Below are positions 32,148-38,002 of a stretch of 38,073 nucleotides of DNA, one piece after another; within the stretch, counting starts at the first letter, position 1, and every line of letters starts with the position of its first letter. Source of the stretch: Candidatus Poribacteria bacterium (GTDB lineage: Bacteria; Poribacteria; WGA-4E; WGA-3G); assembly GCA_022822085.1 (NCBI GenBank), contig JAJECK010000158.1:1-38073 (forward strand). Reading direction: 5' to 3'. The notes below the pieces were generated by a model, which searched no databases, had not been told where the DNA came from, and saw only the letters and a list, made by a program, of their open reading frames with translations. The position numbers and the translations under genes are program-made.

Positions 32148-33050
32148 TTAATTACCTGATCCTTTTTGGATGTGATTTTCTGCTAATTGGACAGCAAATT
32201 CAATCATGGCTTTTGCGATATCTATCCCAGAAACTGATTCCAATTCCTCAAATCCGGGAGATGGGTTGACTTCAAGGATGACGGGCCCGTTTTTTGTTTT
32301 CATTATATCTACGCCAGCGATGTCCAATTGTAATGCGGCTGCGGCTTCAATTGCGATCCGTGTATATTCATCTGTGAGTGTGATCTGCGTTCCATAAGCC
32401 CCTTTGTGTATGTTTGAGCGGAATTCTCCGGGGACTGCGAATCTTTCCATGGCTGCGATAACATTTCCACCTACTACGAGAACGCGTATGTCTACGCCAC
32501 CCGCTTCTGCAATAAAGGATTGAATGATGTAATCACGATGTAGGTCACACATCGCTTCCACTGTTGAGGTGAGAGAGGTCGGCGTATCTAATAACATCAC
32601 TCCAATGCCGTGCGTACCGTAGAAGGGTTTTATGACATACGGATAATCTCCTATTTCCTGCGCGGTTTGTTCTAAATAGGTTGCTGAACCGACGGTAAGA
32701 CTGGGGGGAACAGGTAAGTTGTGTTGTGCGAGTATGCGTAATGATCTGAACTTGTGCCGTGCTTCAGCGATCGCGTTTGCTGTATTGACAACGGGAATTC
32801 CGAGCCATTCATAATGTGAAACGACCTCTCCTCCGTATCGTGCTGTTGCACTTGAGAGTCTGGGAATAACGACATCATAATCTTCAGCTGGTTCACCTTC
32901 ATAAGTGATTCGGTGTCCGGTTCCACTGATTTGTAGGTAGAATCCGAAGGGGTCGCAGACGGTTGCGGTGTGTCCTGCTTTTTGGGCAGCTTCAACGAGA
33001 GTACTGGTTGAGTGATTTTGGGGTCCACGGGAGAGGATAGCTATTTTCAT
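32148..33050 (-). CDS. rimK: RimK-like ATP-grasp ligase
   Basis: 300 residues from the ATG at 33050, the same length as E. coli RimK. The longer frame from 33140 would translate a mobile repeat and is rejected. MKIAILSRGPQNHST is the family start. ATP-grasp features: YPYVIKPFYGTHGIGV (phosphate loop), IIQSFIAEAGGVDIRVLVVG, REGEFRSN-like VPGEFRSNIHKG, then VDIMKTKNGPVILEVNPSPG with metal-binding Glu and Asn. RimK adds glutamate to ribosomal protein S6 or makes poly-glutamate. Other members ligate amino acids to cofactors or peptides, so the target is not certain. No ribosome site is visible. A glycosyltransferase is coupled directly downstream. Confidence 0.85.
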   Translation of the reverse strand: MKIAILSRGPQNHSTSTLVEAAQKAGHTATVCDPFGFYLQISGTGHRITYEGEPAEDYDVVIPRLSSATARYGGEVVSHYEWLGIPVVNTANAIAEARHKFRSLRILAQHNLPVPPSLTVGSATYLEQTAQEIGDYPYVIKPFYGTHGIGVMLLDTPTSLTSTVEAMCDLHRDYIIQSFIAEAGGVDIRVLVVGGNVIAAMERFAVPGEFRSNIHKGAYGTQITLTDEYTRIAIEAAAALQLDIAGVDIMKTKNGPVILEVNPSPGFEELESVSGIDIAKAMIEFAVQLAENHIQKGSGN

Positions 33051-33080
33051 AGTCAAGATGGCTTTCGGGAGTAAAATAGG

Positions 33081-33122
33081 ACCATTTCTATAAATGAATC
33101 TCTCTGAGCAGATAGAAATGGT
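33081..33122. repeat. Short (solo-end) copy of MITE family 2 in the rimK leader
   Basis: ACCATTTCTAT (33081-33091) and ATAGAAATGGT (33112-33122) are perfect inverse copies, 42 bases in all. Same termini as the elements at 28292 and 34458, but with most of the interior deleted. It lies 31 bases before the rimK start. Confidence 0.65.
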
Positions 33123-33176
33123 AATAATTGTTTTATCCAATCGGGGTTGGAAACCCCTTCAACAATACGGTTAATC

Positions 33177-33364
33177 TTATAGTAAAATCCGAAAATATGT
33201 TCACATTTCAATGAACAACAATCCCCCCACACTCGTGCTGGCGAGGCGGGGAATGCCTAAATGGCATTCATACCCGGGGAATGACTAAATGTCATTCATA
33301 CCGTTGATTTCTTGATTTCTTCCTAACCTCGCCAATGTCCAGGTAATTGTGGTTTTTACTATAA
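33177..33364 (-). mobile_element. MITE-like element, family 1, copy B
   Basis: 188 bases bounded by TTATAGTAAAATCC (33177-33190) and GGTTTTTACTATAA (33351-33364). It is an inverse copy of 28137-28286 with one extra hairpin module: GAATGCC-taaat-GGCATTC (33251-33269) and GAATGAC-taaat-GTCATTC (33279-33297). The two stems differ by a compensated base pair. It also carries a small duplication (GAAATCAAGAAATCAAC on the inverse strand). Confidence 0.8.
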
Positions 33365-33390: not shown

Positions 33391-34422
33391 TTATCCAGTT
33401 TGATATGTTTCCTTCAGAAAGTCGTCTAACTCTTCATAAGTGTCAAAAATTTTATCACATAAGTTTTCAAAAAAGATGCTGCGGGTTTCATTGTAGACAG
33501 CATATACGGGTTTGTTATGTCGTGTTGCGTAGTTCATTTCGCTGAGAACACCAGGAGATAATTTGTCTGTCGGATAGATGACCACGACGAAATCACTCTG
33601 ATGGACAAATTGATAATCTCGAGAAATGGTTCGGGTTTTTATCTGCTCTATTACCTGATCGTCTAATTCGCTCATTGTTTCAGGGACATCCAACTCCTGG
33701 TCGTCATTCTCTGCTTTTGAGAAGGTGACGAGTGCCATATCCTTGATTGCAAGCGGATCGAAGCAGATGTATGTGCGTGAAAGTTTTTTACCTAACTCAC
33801 GAATTTTGTTTATCTCTTCTGGCGTGTCTCTTAACAGTGTAATCGGATAACTGAGATAGAATTTGGGTTTGTCTGTAAAGAGCAGTTCATAGAAATTGGC
33901 GAGGTCGTGTTGCCGTGCAACGGTGTAGTACGGTTTTTCTGTGAGATGCGCGAGGTGTCTGGTGAGGAATTCTTCTTCGTCTAACCAGACATTGAGGGCT
34001 GTCTTTTGTAGTCCTGCCCATTGTGCGTTTTTTTCCATCCGTCCGTAGATGTCGGCGATGTTGTCTACTACGTTGATGAACATATCGGGTGGGAGGATTT
34101 CTATGTCCTTGAATGTAAATCCTTCTAATAGACTGCCACGCCATCGGAAACAGGCGTGCAACCCGATGATTGCGTGGTGATATGCTTGTGCGTCGCGTGC
34201 GATTTCGTAGAATGCATTACGGCGCGCTAAGGATAGCACTGCTGGGTCTGAGTCGAGGACTTTCTCTGTGAAGTGGACGCGCGCTTCTGCGGCGACTCGG
34301 TGCATGTAGTCGCCAATGTTGAAGAATCCGATGTTGAGTTCTCTTTGCACGCAGAGTGCCTCAAAGTCTTTGATGAGTTCTTTGCGTCCTGAGCAACTGA
34401 TGCCTGTGCAGAAGATGTTCAT
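33391..34422 (-). CDS. Fusion of adenylate-kinase-like P-loop domain and nucleoside 2-deoxyribosyltransferase-like domain
   Basis: 343 residues, cytoplasmic. The N-terminal half (1-184) starts MNIFCTGISCSGRKELIKDF, like archaeal adenylate kinases, but the Walker A is altered: SGRKE in place of GxGK(S/T). FNIGDYMHRVA and FRWRGSLLEGF follow, as in archaeal and candidate-phylum relatives that I remember. The second half (185-343) begins KFYLSYPIT and carries SDFVVVIYPTDKLSPGVLSE, then MNYATRHNKPVYAV. This is the strand and Glu pattern of nucleoside 2-deoxyribosyltransferases (Glu295 in the catalytic position). A role in nucleotide salvage, editing or signalling is inferred. The direct partner is unknown. 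Ribosome site weak (AAGG). A MITE lies 36 bases upstream. Confidence 0.7.
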   Translation of the reverse strand: MNIFCTGISCSGRKELIKDFEALCVQRELNIGFFNIGDYMHRVAAEARVHFTEKVLDSDPAVLSLARRNAFYEIARDAQAYHHAIIGLHACFRWRGSLLEGFTFKDIEILPPDMFINVVDNIADIYGRMEKNAQWAGLQKTALNVWLDEEEFLTRHLAHLTEKPYYTVARQHDLANFYELLFTDKPKFYLSYPITLLRDTPEEINKIRELGKKLSRTYICFDPLAIKDMALVTFSKAENDDQELDVPETMSELDDQVIEQIKTRTISRDYQFVHQSDFVVVIYPTDKLSPGVLSEMNYATRHNKPVYAVYNETRSIFFENLCDKIFDTYEELDDFLKETYQTG

Positions 34423-34686: not shown

Positions 34687-34908
34687 ATGACACAAAACAA
34701 ATTTCCGCCAGGGTGGGATGAAGCGCGTGTACAAAGTGTTATTGCACATTACGAACAGCAAACAGAGGATGAAGCTGTCGCTGAAGATGAGGCTGCTTTT
34801 CAAGATGAGGGTAGCACATTGATGGCGATTCCTACGGAATTGGTACCCGCCGTGCTTGAACTAATTGACAAACACATTGCTGTAAGACAACATCAAAGAG
34901 AAAGTTAA
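34687..34908 (+). CDS. Small acidic antitoxin-like or adaptor-like protein
   Basis: 73 residues with AGGAGA 9 bases before ATG. MTQNKFPPGWDEARVQSVIA, then HYEQQTEDEAVAEDEAAFQD and a MAIPTELVPAVLELIDKHIA end. I remember many short proteins of this form (FPPGWDEERV...HYE.QTE.EAV.EDEAA) in cyanobacteria and Chloroflexi. The helical C-terminus contacting a partner would suit an antitoxin. No toxin gene lies beside it here: the next genes are on the other strand. Function unproven. Confidence 0.7.
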   Translation: MTQNKFPPGWDEARVQSVIAHYEQQTEDEAVAEDEAAFQDEGSTLMAIPTELVPAVLELIDKHIAVRQHQRES

Positions 34909-35044
34909 AATTAAAGGCAGTGTCTGCTGGTTTGTGTTTGAGACAAACTGTTCATCAAAACGTCTGAATAAACTAGCATTCATTGCTTTCTCTTTCCGTT
35001 AAACTCGCCTACAATTATGAGCGAAATCTAGTATGTCAGACACT

Positions 35045-35848
35045 TCAAGATTGATCGAGTGTCCAATTGTAGTTGAATGCCATAACAATAGGTGCTATAT
35101 CTTCAGATGGTATTTCATTAAGTCTCATGCGATCATAAAGGCTGGGTCGTATCAATTTCGCTCCCTGTGATATGCTATTAGGACGAACAGCCAAGGATCT
35201 TGCCCCAGGAACGAGATTACCACCCGCTTTATTTGCCAACTCTATGTAGATGTATCCTTGATCATAAAGATCTACACACTCATCACATATGTGCGATAAA
35301 TCTATATGGTAAGGTTGTTTTCGTCCTTCCAAAGTTGATTTATCACATAACTGGAACTTTTCTTTCTCAGATGCGATCTTCATTAAACAAAGTTGTCTAT
35401 AAGAAAGGTTTTCAATGTCTTGTAGTAATCTATGTGCTGAATCGGCACTAATCTCAGGTGGAAAAGCAAAGCTGGAAGTCAGGTAACCTATATGTTTTAG
35501 TTTCTTTTCATTCATTTCATCTGCAGCTTTTAGCAAAATAGAATCAACAATATCATCAAAATCGGAGCGGTCTGTTGGTGCTTTATTACCTAAAAATCCA
35601 TCTGTTCTAAATGATTTACCTTCGCCTAGTTTATGCTTAATATCTTCTATAATATGTTCACGGACTTGATCCATATTATCCCGCTGTTTTGTTAGTTTAC
35701 GCGCGAGCAACTCTCCAGAAGCATAACCCATCGTGGCTGATAACTCTGGATCATTAGTAACCGCTGCCGTAAGTAACATACTTCCAATGCTAGTCGCTCC
35801 AACAACGACGTTATTCAATAATTCGCTACCCTTTTTGATTACATTCAT
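35045..35848 (-). CDS. Hypothetical protein beside a restriction-modification gene
   Basis: 267 residues, AAGGAGATG about 10 bases before ATG. Residues about 10-50 (NNVVVGATSIGSMLLTAAVT and onward) form a Gly/Ala-rich hydrophobic stretch that could insert in or associate with a membrane. The rest is mixed alpha/beta, with DIENLSYRQLCLMKIASEKE in the middle and LAVRPNSISQGAKLIRPSLY near the end. I do not recognise a named family. It follows the truncated type ISP gene by 75 bases on the same strand, so it may belong to a defence cluster, but that is context only. Confidence 0.65.
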   Translation of the reverse strand: MNVIKKGSELLNNVVVGATSIGSMLLTAAVTNDPELSATMGYASGELLARKLTKQRDNMDQVREHIIEDIKHKLGEGKSFRTDGFLGNKAPTDRSDFDDIVDSILLKAADEMNEKKLKHIGYLTSSFAFPPEISADSAHRLLQDIENLSYRQLCLMKIASEKEKFQLCDKSTLEGRKQPYHIDLSHICDECVDLYDQGYIYIELANKAGGNLVPGARSLAVRPNSISQGAKLIRPSLYDRMRLNEIPSEDIAPIVMAFNYNWTLDQS

Positions 35849-35923
35849 AACTCAAGCATCTCCTTGTTGGACCAAAAGTAATTCACCAGTATTAGATAGG
35901 AGTCATAGGAGCTGCCAGGCCCG

Positions 35924-38002
35924 TTAATACTTTTCCGGTAAACTGTCAACAATCTTCACCGTCTCAAGACTGACGGTAATAACACGCGCGATTAAGTCCA
36001 CAATATATTTCGGTTCACCCTCACGATTCGGATCTCTCACACTATAACTCCCTTTACGATTTCCTCTATCCTTATCCACCTTGATTTCATACTGATTAAC
36101 GATCCACTCCAATGCAGAGCGAGTGCCTAACTTATAGTCGTGCACTTCTGCAGGAATACCTTCAATAGTCAGAAAGTCGTTGTATTCAATCTGCGTTTTG
36201 TCTTGAGACCATTTCATTTTTTTTACATGCCAATTTAGTTGTCTGTTTGGTTTATCTTTAAGTTCCAGTCCTTCATATCCTGGAACAGACTCATAGTTGA
36301 CATGGAGATCCGCTAACGATTTTCCTGCATTCGCGAATACCCAGAAATCCTGTGTAAATGGGATTCTCGGTAGACTATGCTTTAGATTCTCCCTATATTT
36401 ATCACGATAACCTTTGTGATGCAGTAGTCCGTAGATATAGTTGAAAATATTCCACTTTGTGATACAATCATCTTTGTACCAGTCTTGGAATTCTGTTAGT
36501 GCCCAGTCGGTAGTGTTTTCAGTTCGGTTCGTTCCATCTTCATTGTAGGTATAAAAAGGAAAGGATTGTTGAGGGTCACCATAGAGATTAATGTTTGGGA
36601 TCAGCGTACTCATCAGAACTGCAAATTCTTTCCGTCCATAGGCCTCAACACACATAACCCTATTTTCAGATTCTGCTTTGGAATTAGGAAATATAGAAGG
36701 AAAATGTCCGGGACTGTCAATCAGAATTCTGTCTAGAAATAGAACTTTTTTCGTAAAGGGCCGGTAAAGGGATTCCCTAACTTTGTGATTTTCATATTCA
36801 GTATTTGCTCCTCGCTTTAACTTGTTTTTTAAGTCACGACTCCATTTAATTTTGGTAGCATCGGATAAAACAAAGTCATCAACTTCAGGTTTTGGGGGTG
36901 CTTGACGCATATAACGATCCACTTCTGCATTGTAAGTTTCTATCATACGATTCACATTATTACGTAGCGTATCTTGATTAAAACTATAAACCCAGTAATC
37001 TCGATTGGTTGATACACCAAGACTGAAGTCTTTAAAAATCACGGATTCTGCAATGCCTTCTTTGTCCTTTGCTTCTTTAGTGCCCATCGGGACGAAGTCG
37101 TCAAAATCTTCCTGGAGTCCTTTAGTGATCCACCTATTTTTGTCATCTGGTTGAATCTGTTCCCATGAAACATTACCTACATTTTGATGCCTGTTAAGGA
37201 AATCGAAAGTCTGTACCTTGCTCTGTAATTCTGTTTCGTTGTTGTAAAAAATACATGGCGAGTCAACAGGTTCCCCTGTTTTCACGAGCATCGCGACACT
37301 CACACCGATTGTGATTTCAAACACATTTGAATCGTCTTGACCTTCACGCATACCTCCCCCTAAATTGAGAAGATATAGTGCATTAAATCCTTCTGCCAGA
37401 TGTTTGCGCATTCCATCAAATGTCCGTTTAAAAATAAAGCTATTGTTTGTTACAAACGCAACGAGGCCAGTATCTCCAATTCGTTCCGATGCCCAGAAAA
37501 ACGCTCTCACATAATGGTCATACAAATATTTACTATATTGTGCTTTAGAATCTTTTGAGTATGTATCCTTAATCTGTTTGTCCAAGGGCGGATATTCACG
37601 ATTTTTGTTATTCTCGTTTTCATCGTCTTGCCCCGCATTGTAAGGCGGATTGCCGATAACGACAAACATGTCCTTCTCTTTTTGCTGTTCAACCCGTTTT
37701 GTGTTTTCCTCAGTAAAAAGATCCATCTGAGCTTTATCATACAATTCGAAGGTATCTGCGAAAGCTAGCCCTTCAAAAAGTAGGTTTGTCCCCGTGTGAT
37801 GCCAAAACTCTTGTTGAATATTTAAGTTGGCAATGTAGTAAGGCAGTAACAAAACTTCGTTGCAATGTAGTTCGTGCTTATATTTTTCCTCTAATGCTAT
37901 TTTCCGTATGTCCTGCATGATTCGGACAATAAAATTACTATAGTTTGGACAGTTTAAACCCGTCAAGACTTTCAACAGGGAAGAAAATAGTTGTGTAAAC
38001 AC
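35924..38002 (-). CDS. Type ISP (LlaBIII-like) restriction-modification enzyme, 5'-truncated: methyltransferase half plus specificity region
   Basis: 692 residues from a GTG without ribosome site. Full type ISP proteins have nuclease, helicase, coupler, N6-adenine methyltransferase and target-recognition domains in about 1500 residues. Only the end of the methyltransferase and the specificity region are here. ELHCNEVLLLPYYIANLNI, the amino-methyltransferase motif IV NPPYN (118-122) and FVTNNSFIFKRTFDGMRKHL are clear. The C-terminal part (WALTEFQDWYKDDCI..., IPFTQDFWVFANAGKSLADL, NWHVKKMKWSQDKTQIEY) is typical of the LlaBIII-type target domain. The expected SAM-binding motif I (DPAxGTGNF) just before NFIVRIMQDIRK is replaced by TGLNCPNYS, so methylation is doubtful. 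Any 5' part lies beyond the window. Probably a decaying or split gene. Confidence 0.75.
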   Translation of the reverse strand: MFTQLFSSLLKVLTGLNCPNYSNFIVRIMQDIRKIALEEKYKHELHCNEVLLLPYYIANLNIQQEFWHHTGTNLLFEGLAFADTFELYDKAQMDLFTEENTKRVEQQKEKDMFVVIGNPPYNAGQDDENENNKNREYPPLDKQIKDTYSKDSKAQYSKYLYDHYVRAFFWASERIGDTGLVAFVTNNSFIFKRTFDGMRKHLAEGFNALYLLNLGGGMREGQDDSNVFEITIGVSVAMLVKTGEPVDSPCIFYNNETELQSKVQTFDFLNRHQNVGNVSWEQIQPDDKNRWITKGLQEDFDDFVPMGTKEAKDKEGIAESVIFKDFSLGVSTNRDYWVYSFNQDTLRNNVNRMIETYNAEVDRYMRQAPPKPEVDDFVLSDATKIKWSRDLKNKLKRGANTEYENHKVRESLYRPFTKKVLFLDRILIDSPGHFPSIFPNSKAESENRVMCVEAYGRKEFAVLMSTLIPNINLYGDPQQSFPFYTYNEDGTNRTENTTDWALTEFQDWYKDDCITKWNIFNYIYGLLHHKGYRDKYRENLKHSLPRIPFTQDFWVFANAGKSLADLHVNYESVPGYEGLELKDKPNRQLNWHVKKMKWSQDKTQIEYNDFLTIEGIPAEVHDYKLGTRSALEWIVNQYEIKVDKDRGNRKGSYSVRDPNREGEPKYIVDLIARVITVSLETVKIVDSLPEKY

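Follow-up and report, generated by a model that had tools for sequence, protein, structure and literature searches.

A fused AdkA-like and DNPH1/NDT-like gene in Poribacteria

The window, meaning the whole 38,073-nt stretch of DNA analyzed here, is contig C80 of a 5.63-Mb Candidatus Poribacteria genome. On its minus strand lies a single intact ORF with an ATG start, whose 343-aa product (hereafter P0001) joins a domain resembling archaeal adenylate kinase (AdkA) to a domain resembling nucleoside 2-deoxyribosyltransferases (NDT) and the 2'-deoxynucleoside 5'-phosphate N-hydrolase DNPH1. The genes considered first are as follows.

33391..34422, minus strand: fusion gene, AdkA-like plus DNPH1/NDT-like domain, 343 aa (ORF, Pfam, 69 of 84 phylum genomes, dN/dS)
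32148..33140, minus strand: neighboring gene for a RimK-family ATP-grasp ligase, likely ATG start at 33050 (TIGR00768, 236.9 bits, over the cut-off)

Pfam placed AAA_17 at residues 7-132 of the fusion protein (31.2 bits, cut-off 27) and Nuc_deoxyrib_tr (PF05014) at 257-316, the latter at 27.7 bits, just under its cut-off of 28.8, and at 29.5 bits, above it, in the whole-genome search. Against relatives from the same genus, dN/dS was 0.015/0.52, 0.048/1.00 and 0.067/1.08. These low values, together with presence in 69 of the 84 genomes of the phylum, establish the ORF as a real gene; it is widespread and slowly evolving, like a core gene. A first-pass annotation made from the letters of the window had reported this ORF and its motifs, all of which we recovered at exactly the positions it gave: TGISCSGRKEL at residues 6-16, YLSYPIT at 189-195 and SPGVLSEMNYA at 289-299, with Glu at residue 295. 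Between the fusion and RimK genes, two short, near-identical, REP-like palindromes sit side by side (33240-33300).

Folds and active-site residues of the two domains

An AlphaFold2 model of P0001 built from 24 sequences reached a pLDDT of 82.8 and a pTM of 0.82, with residues 231-253 unreliable. Foldseek matched this model to AdkA 6pk5 (E 1.5e-9), to the deoxyribosyltransferase 7o62 (E 3.5e-5) and to DNPH1 8rqd (E 3.9e-4). By VIA-align, residues 1-182 superposed on AdkA 6pjw_A (Z 19.5, rmsd 2.4, 179 aligned) and residues 183-340 on 7o62_B (Z 16.7, rmsd 1.9, 130 aligned), with DNPH1 8rpt_B at 13.9 and the CMP N-glycosidase MilB (4jel) at 13.1. A second model, of a protein from locus L155 that is 32% identical to P0001 and hardly detected by Pfam (AAA_17 at 17.9 bits only), scored a pLDDT of 88.7 and a pTM of 0.87 and gave Z 21.4 to 6pjw_A, 15.9 to 7o62_B and 14.9 to DNPH1. 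Both folds that the first-pass annotation had read from the sequence and had proposed to check by structure prediction are thus present, the adenylate-kinase-like one over residues 1-182 and the deoxyribosyltransferase-like one with its YLSYPIT start and SPGVLSEMNYA segment. At the sequence level, a profile of the fusion matched 6pjw at E 6.3e-8; a single-sequence search of P0001 against the PDB gave no match, and a search of the PDB with one C-terminal domain alone gave nothing useful.

The N-terminal features are listed below.

33877..34422, minus strand: archaeal AdkA fold, predicted catalytically dead, residues 1-182 (VIA-align to 6pjw_A; profile match to 6pjw)
34378..34404, minus strand: degenerate P-loop GISCSGRKE, residues 7-15, with Arg13/Lys14 replacing Lys and Ser/Thr (conservation)
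34123..34152, minus strand: extra beta-hairpin, residues 91-100, trimer-making in archaeal AdkA (DSSP strands 91-94 and 97-100 in the model; PMC10883716)

Archaeal AdkAs (6pjw, 6ln3, OdinAK; NF003122) share the fold of this domain, trimer hairpin included, at the distance of remote sequence homology: the NF003122 model for archaeal AdkA scores 18.7 on the fusion protein against a cut-off of 155. The extra AdkA-type strands appear in both models (91-94/97-100 in P0001; 95-98/101-104 in the L155 protein), and in archaeal AdkA the corresponding strands, beta4/beta5, are described as joining subunits into trimers (PMC10883716). The fusion protein differs from archaeal AdkA in having lost the P-loop Lys/Thr and the counterparts of the LID residues Arg138/Arg140, in its bacterial host, and in the N-glycosidase-like domain added at its C-terminus.

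To follow conservation we used 83 distinct full-length proteins, 66 of Poribacteria type and 17 others, after removing one nested duplicate. No protein in this set carries GxxxxGK[ST] at the P-loop, the lone match to the pattern elsewhere being at residue 32 of P0002, a relative described below, so the altered Walker A noticed in the window's protein holds throughout the set. Nor does GISCSGRKE fit the AdkA-type P-loop, which in solved chains reads GK, GG or GS followed by TT. Among the 66 Poribacteria-type proteins, in which 107 of 343 columns are invariant, P-loop residues 6, 7, 9, 10, 12, 13 and 15 never vary, indicating that the loop is constrained, though not as a Walker A motif; over the full set of 83, conservation in the loop is limited to Gly7 and Ile8.

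We considered, and rejected, the argument that absence of the P-loop Lys proves the kinase dead, because solved methanococcal AdkAs, examined as a control, also lack this Lys (GVPGVGGTT or GVPGVGSTT) while retaining Thr-Thr. Loss of the Lys alone proves nothing, and the argument instead rests on loss of the Thr and of the LID arginines. In M. igneus AdkA, LID residues Arg138 and Arg140 are reported to be critical for phosphate transfer (PMC10883716), and a HMMER alignment pairs them with Gln134 and Ala136 of P0001. Computation therefore shows an archaeal AdkA fold from which the P-loop Lys/Thr and, in P0001, two phosphate-moving LID arginines have been lost. Within residues 131-141, 48 of the 66 Poribacteria-type proteins have no Arg; judged from the sequences, loss of N-terminal kinase activity is not proven family-wide, as 15 of the 17 non-Poribacteria members have at least one Arg near the LID.

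The C-terminal half carries the following features.

33394..33873, minus strand: NDT/DNPH1-type N-glycosidase domain (predicted), residues 184-343, about 183-340 aligned (VIA-align Z 16.7 to 7o62_B, 13.9 to DNPH1, 13.1 to MilB)
33856..33858, minus strand: Tyr189, counterpart of DNPH1 Tyr24 (83 of 83 proteins; role from PMC10603095)
33616..33618, minus strand: Asp269, counterpart of DNPH1 Asp80 and CtNDT Asp62, the general acid (83 of 83 proteins; the 26-residue spacing to the Glu matches CtNDT)
33556..33558, minus strand: Ser289, six residues before Glu295, counterpart of the phosphate residues DNPH1 Ser98 and MilB Ser97 (83 of 83 proteins)
33538..33540, minus strand: Glu295, predicted catalytic nucleophile (82 of 83 proteins; Lys in the decayed paralogue at L049)
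33478..33480, minus strand: Ser315, followed by a short helix (316-320) and probably equivalent to DNPH1 Ser128' (82 or more of 83 proteins; helix in the model)

The top structural score of this domain is to a nucleoside 2-deoxyribosyltransferase (PF05014; 7o62), and its Asp-Glu spacing is that of CtNDT (D62/E88, 26 residues; PMC10913048), an enzyme type whose active sites are described as completed by a second subunit (PMC10913048). DNPH1/RCL and MilB have the same fold (Z about 13-15) and share with the fusion protein the Tyr/Asp/Glu set, a phosphate Ser six residues before the Glu, and probably the Ser with a short helix after the core. In DNPH1 the triad is Tyr24/Asp80/Glu104 and the phosphate is contacted by Ser98 and by Ser128' from the helical extension of the partner subunit (PMC10603095); in MilB, Ser97 and Gly99 bind the phosphate, and the E103A mutant is catalytically dead (PMC4081090). 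In the solved chains of DNPH1 and MilB this domain stands alone, whereas the fusion protein carries a 180-residue AdkA domain in front of it.

The domain thus has the NDT/DNPH1 fold, the Tyr-Asp-Glu set and the phosphate Ser/Gly of the NMP-hydrolyzing branch, as shown by computation. Gly291, four residues before Glu295, is kept in all 83 proteins, and the catalytic role predicted early on for Glu295 is backed both by the structure comparison and by its conservation. Judged from the models, fold similarity cannot separate 2-deoxyribosyltransferases from DNPH1, with 7o62 ranking first. Compared with the transferases, the fusion protein has the kinase-like domain attached and has Ser289 in place of what we take to be Asp92 in the Lactobacillus enzyme (LlNDT). 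With Ser289 and Gly291 at the DNPH1/MilB phosphate positions, this comparison would favor a monophosphate substrate.

Distribution and gene neighborhoods

P0001 matches 69 of the 84 phylum genomes, its own counted, with full-length matches at 62% identity or more. A contig scan found 62 loci, 61 of them titled Poribacteria and one (L113) from another bacterium; it used two short peptide patterns and says little about distant relatives. In a profile search of 386 genomes around that of the window, 73 were positive, comprising the 69 in the phylum and four of 302 others. A second 386-genome sample, overlapping the first, returned 15 matches, 12 full-length and three to the C-terminal domain only; the new full-length member came from genome G513, and standalone proteins consisting of the C-terminal domain are present in G200, G341 and G426. 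By lineage, the fusion occurs in six of the seven genomes of a small phylum (f108), in two of four in f107 and in four of 54 in f23. In the phylum of G084, the genome of L113, nine of 44 genomes match P0002 at E 1e-3, full length only in G084 and G115, and two of 44 are positive by profile.

Plasmids (72,556 records) and phages (50,697 records) gave zero fusion matches when queried with P0001, P0002, P0003, the L140 protein and profiles A2 and A3, and the sole positive across the plasmid, phage and viral searches was one viral contig. In our genome searches, which covered bacteria, full-length relatives are found in five further groups, and one more is on a viral contig. The first-pass annotation had named archaea and candidate phyla as hosts of relatives; those in candidate phyla do exist, in several little-known bacterial phyla. 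The fusion family is conserved and uncharacterized, and it spans poorly known phyla that include sponge-associated bacteria. It was not described in any paper found by our searches of open-licence literature; the parts are already known, and what is new, as far as seen, is their combination and its spread.

G084 encodes two adjacent fusion proteins, P0002, which shares 42% identity with P0001, and the distant P0003; at L113:9001-11755 and at L122, two distant paralogues flank a small cysteine-rich CpXC-like protein behind an rlmN-like gene, and G115 retains just the distant paralogue and the cysteine-rich protein. On the 476-kb IMG/VR contig (L140:3428-6047), an RtcB ligase gene is followed directly by a P0003-like fusion protein. 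A second copy in G055 (L049:5589-6629) is decaying: Lys replaces the catalytic Glu, and the RTISRD segment is damaged or lost.

In f108, tblastn found genes for a pyrimidine phosphorylase, HPRT, DeoC and the fusion in the same order and strand at six of six loci, the phosphorylase of L166 being cut by the contig end. NCBIfam scores for these neighbors were 282.5 for deoC (cut-off 117.3), 200.9 for HGPRTase (150) and 538.4 for the PRK05820 thymidine phosphorylase (269). DeoC consumes deoxyribose 5-phosphate. At L155 and L156, the two f108 loci inspected for this, DeoC and the fusion are separated by a lipoprotein-like frame. In G513, a single genome at 79% completeness, the fusion gene is followed after 38 nt by a dNMP kinase gene (DNMK, PF21448, 50.5 bits, cut-off 27.1) and then by an overlapping dCMP deaminase gene (PF00383, 73 bits).

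Elsewhere the neighbors vary. The RimK-family ligase gene lies downstream on the same strand at 49 of the 61 Poribacteria loci and on the opposite strand at one; it was not seen at 11, several of which end soon past the fusion gene. In f23, the fusion comes after an ECF sigma gene and a gene for a small membrane-type protein, with overlapping starts and stops (L154, L174, L176), and at L175 the sigma gene would lie beyond the contig end. This translational coupling to a sigma factor and an anti-sigma-like gene suggests stress-controlled expression of the fusion at these three loci. A deoxyhypusine-synthase-like gene lies upstream at both f107 loci, and RlmN, named from its sequence, and the cysteine-rich small protein occur near the fusion in G084 and G115. 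Given this mixture (RimK-like, ECF sigma/anti-sigma-like, deoxyhypusine-synthase-like, RlmN, RtcB), context is not uniform between lineages. The first-pass annotation had suggested surveying neighborhoods for salvage or defense genes: salvage and dNMP genes do accompany the fusion in other phyla, whereas the neighbor in the window is the RimK-like ligase and a defense context is not conserved.

We also considered co-occurrence with DeoC across Poribacteria, where PF01791 matches in 70 of 84 genomes. Of six matches fetched, five were typed: one tagatose-bisphosphate aldolase, which is the only PF01791 match of the window's genome and is not DeoC, three of DhnA/thiolase type, and one true DeoC (G013). 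In G018-G023, six genomes that carry the fusion, PF01791 matched nothing. We therefore dropped this co-occurrence as support and count it against a DeoC link; as the window's genome seems to lack DeoC, a DeoC route cannot explain the fusion gene there or in G018-G023.

Upstream of the fusion gene, window positions 34687-38002 hold a 73-aa frame, a 267-aa gene and, at the contig end, a gene for a Type ISP/IIG restriction-methylase; in related loci this place is taken by genes that read, from their sequences, as SppA-like and dioxygenase-like. At L010 the same 73-aa frame follows a truncated 5' copy of the fusion gene. At four of 61 loci (L058, L066, L063, L055), the intact gene is preceded, at a distance of about 0.5-1.4 kb, by truncated copies of its 5' end, 76-127 bp long, with differing break points (codons about 21-40) and beside variable inserted genes. 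These loci seem to be an insertion hot spot at which the 5' end of the gene is re-supplied.

Predicted function and alternatives

We favor, with somewhat better than even confidence, the prediction that the fusion protein is a nucleoside-5'-monophosphate N-glycosidase, acting most likely on a deoxynucleotide or a modified one. The first-pass annotation had proposed that the pairing makes, cleaves or senses a modified nucleotide; the phosphate Ser of DNPH1/MilB type and the salvage and dNMP neighbors in other phyla narrow these options to cleavage of an NMP. Two unrelated neighborhoods, the f108 salvage set and the dNMP kinase-dCMP deaminase pair of G513, agree with this reading.

In the predicted reaction, Asp269 would protonate the leaving base while Glu295 attacks C1' to form a sugar-phosphate ester, from which water would free (deoxy)ribose 5-phosphate. 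The AdkA domain would have lost phosphorylation; with its trimer hairpin it probably keeps the enzyme within a higher-order assembly, in which three-fold AdkA contacts would be crossed with the two-fold contacts that complete the NDT/DNPH1 active sites. We infer this crossed trimer/dimer arrangement from the properties of the parts. The AdkA domain may also bind an NMP, so as to select or gate the substrate. A likely job would be salvage of unwanted dNMPs, or removal of damaged ones that genuine NMP kinases would otherwise send on towards DNA.

The substrate could instead be a ribonucleotide, making the protein a MilB/BlsM-like hydrolase of CMP or a modified NMP that releases ribose 5-phosphate in a biosynthetic or RNA-related role rather than in deoxynucleotide salvage. 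The same Ser/Gly contacts serve CMP-type substrates in MilB (PMC4081090), whose structure (4jel, Z 13.1) ties with those of DNPH1; DeoC seems absent from the window's genome, and the RlmN, RtcB and RimK neighbors hint at RNA or translation. We nevertheless consider a ribonucleotide substrate rather unlikely, since the pyrimidine phosphorylase-HPRT-DeoC and dNMP kinase-dCMP deaminase neighborhoods favor deoxynucleotides. A genuine nucleoside 2-deoxyribosyltransferase that transfers deoxyribose from one base to another, with the AdkA domain as a scaffold, would fit the Pfam name and the best structural neighbor of the C-terminal domain (7o62, Z 16.7, and Z 15.9 with the second model). It is improbable, as all 83 proteins have, six residues ahead of the Glu, the Ser that binds the phosphate in DNPH1/MilB; in the Lactobacillus transferase that position is presumably taken by Asp92.

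The two remaining alternatives give the N-terminal domain an active part. A bifunctional enzyme, phosphorylating an NMP through an unusual P-loop and cleaving an NMP with its C-terminal domain, draws on the methanococcal AdkAs that manage without the P-loop Lys and on the mostly strict conservation of TGISCSGRKE in Poribacteria, by which the loop must have some function. It appears a shade less probable than the transferase: the Thr-Thr kept by the methanococcal enzymes is lost, Gln134/Ala136 replace Arg138/Arg140 in P0001, and the family as a whole retains just Gly7 and Ile8 of the P-loop. To the most doubtful alternative, a defense or signaling effector whose NDT/TIR-like domain destroys NAD+ or nucleotides once the AdkA domain senses infection, one could relate the NDT-like effectors described in type II retrons (PMC12405507), the NDT-like proteins proposed to act in abortive infection (PMC3710099), a chance-level PADLOC match to ThsB TIR-like (E 0.044), and the restriction gene upstream in the window. 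That gene, however, sits in a variable stretch outside the conserved neighborhood, and presence in 69 of 84 phylum genomes with low dN/dS and a mostly fixed neighbor, as well as the zero matches among plasmid and phage records, speak against a defense role. We rejected a defense function on these grounds: the plasmid, phage and viral searches yielded one viral contig only, and within the phylum the fusion shows the behavior of a core gene.

Returning to NMP cleavage, we can sketch a more tentative extension, which we regard as speculative. The dead archaeal-type adenylate kinase might serve as the half that senses and assembles in a nucleotide-pool sanitizer, in which AdkA trimers crossed with DNPH1-type dimers would build a closed D3 (or larger) particle. 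An NMP at the old AMP site would then switch base removal on or off, placing the decision to phosphorylate or destroy a dNMP within one protein.

Human DNPH1 is a drug-relevant enzyme. If our reading is correct, nucleotide-pool sanitation of the DNPH1 type would extend to a bacterial form that is larger and may be regulated, and an archaeal-type NMP kinase would have been turned into a pseudokinase. The pairing of a kinase-shaped domain that has shed its ATP-handling parts with a seemingly fully equipped base-cutting domain suggests a form of control or cleaning of DNA building blocks that has not been described. The predicted chemistry is clear, and the two kinds of gene neighborhood make the question of the substrate directly testable. 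Another bacterial salvage enzyme joined to an adenylate kinase is the HGPRT/adenylate-kinase fusion of Zobellia galactanivorans, which differs in its salvage domain and is termed bifunctional in the abstract of its paper (PMC7326950).
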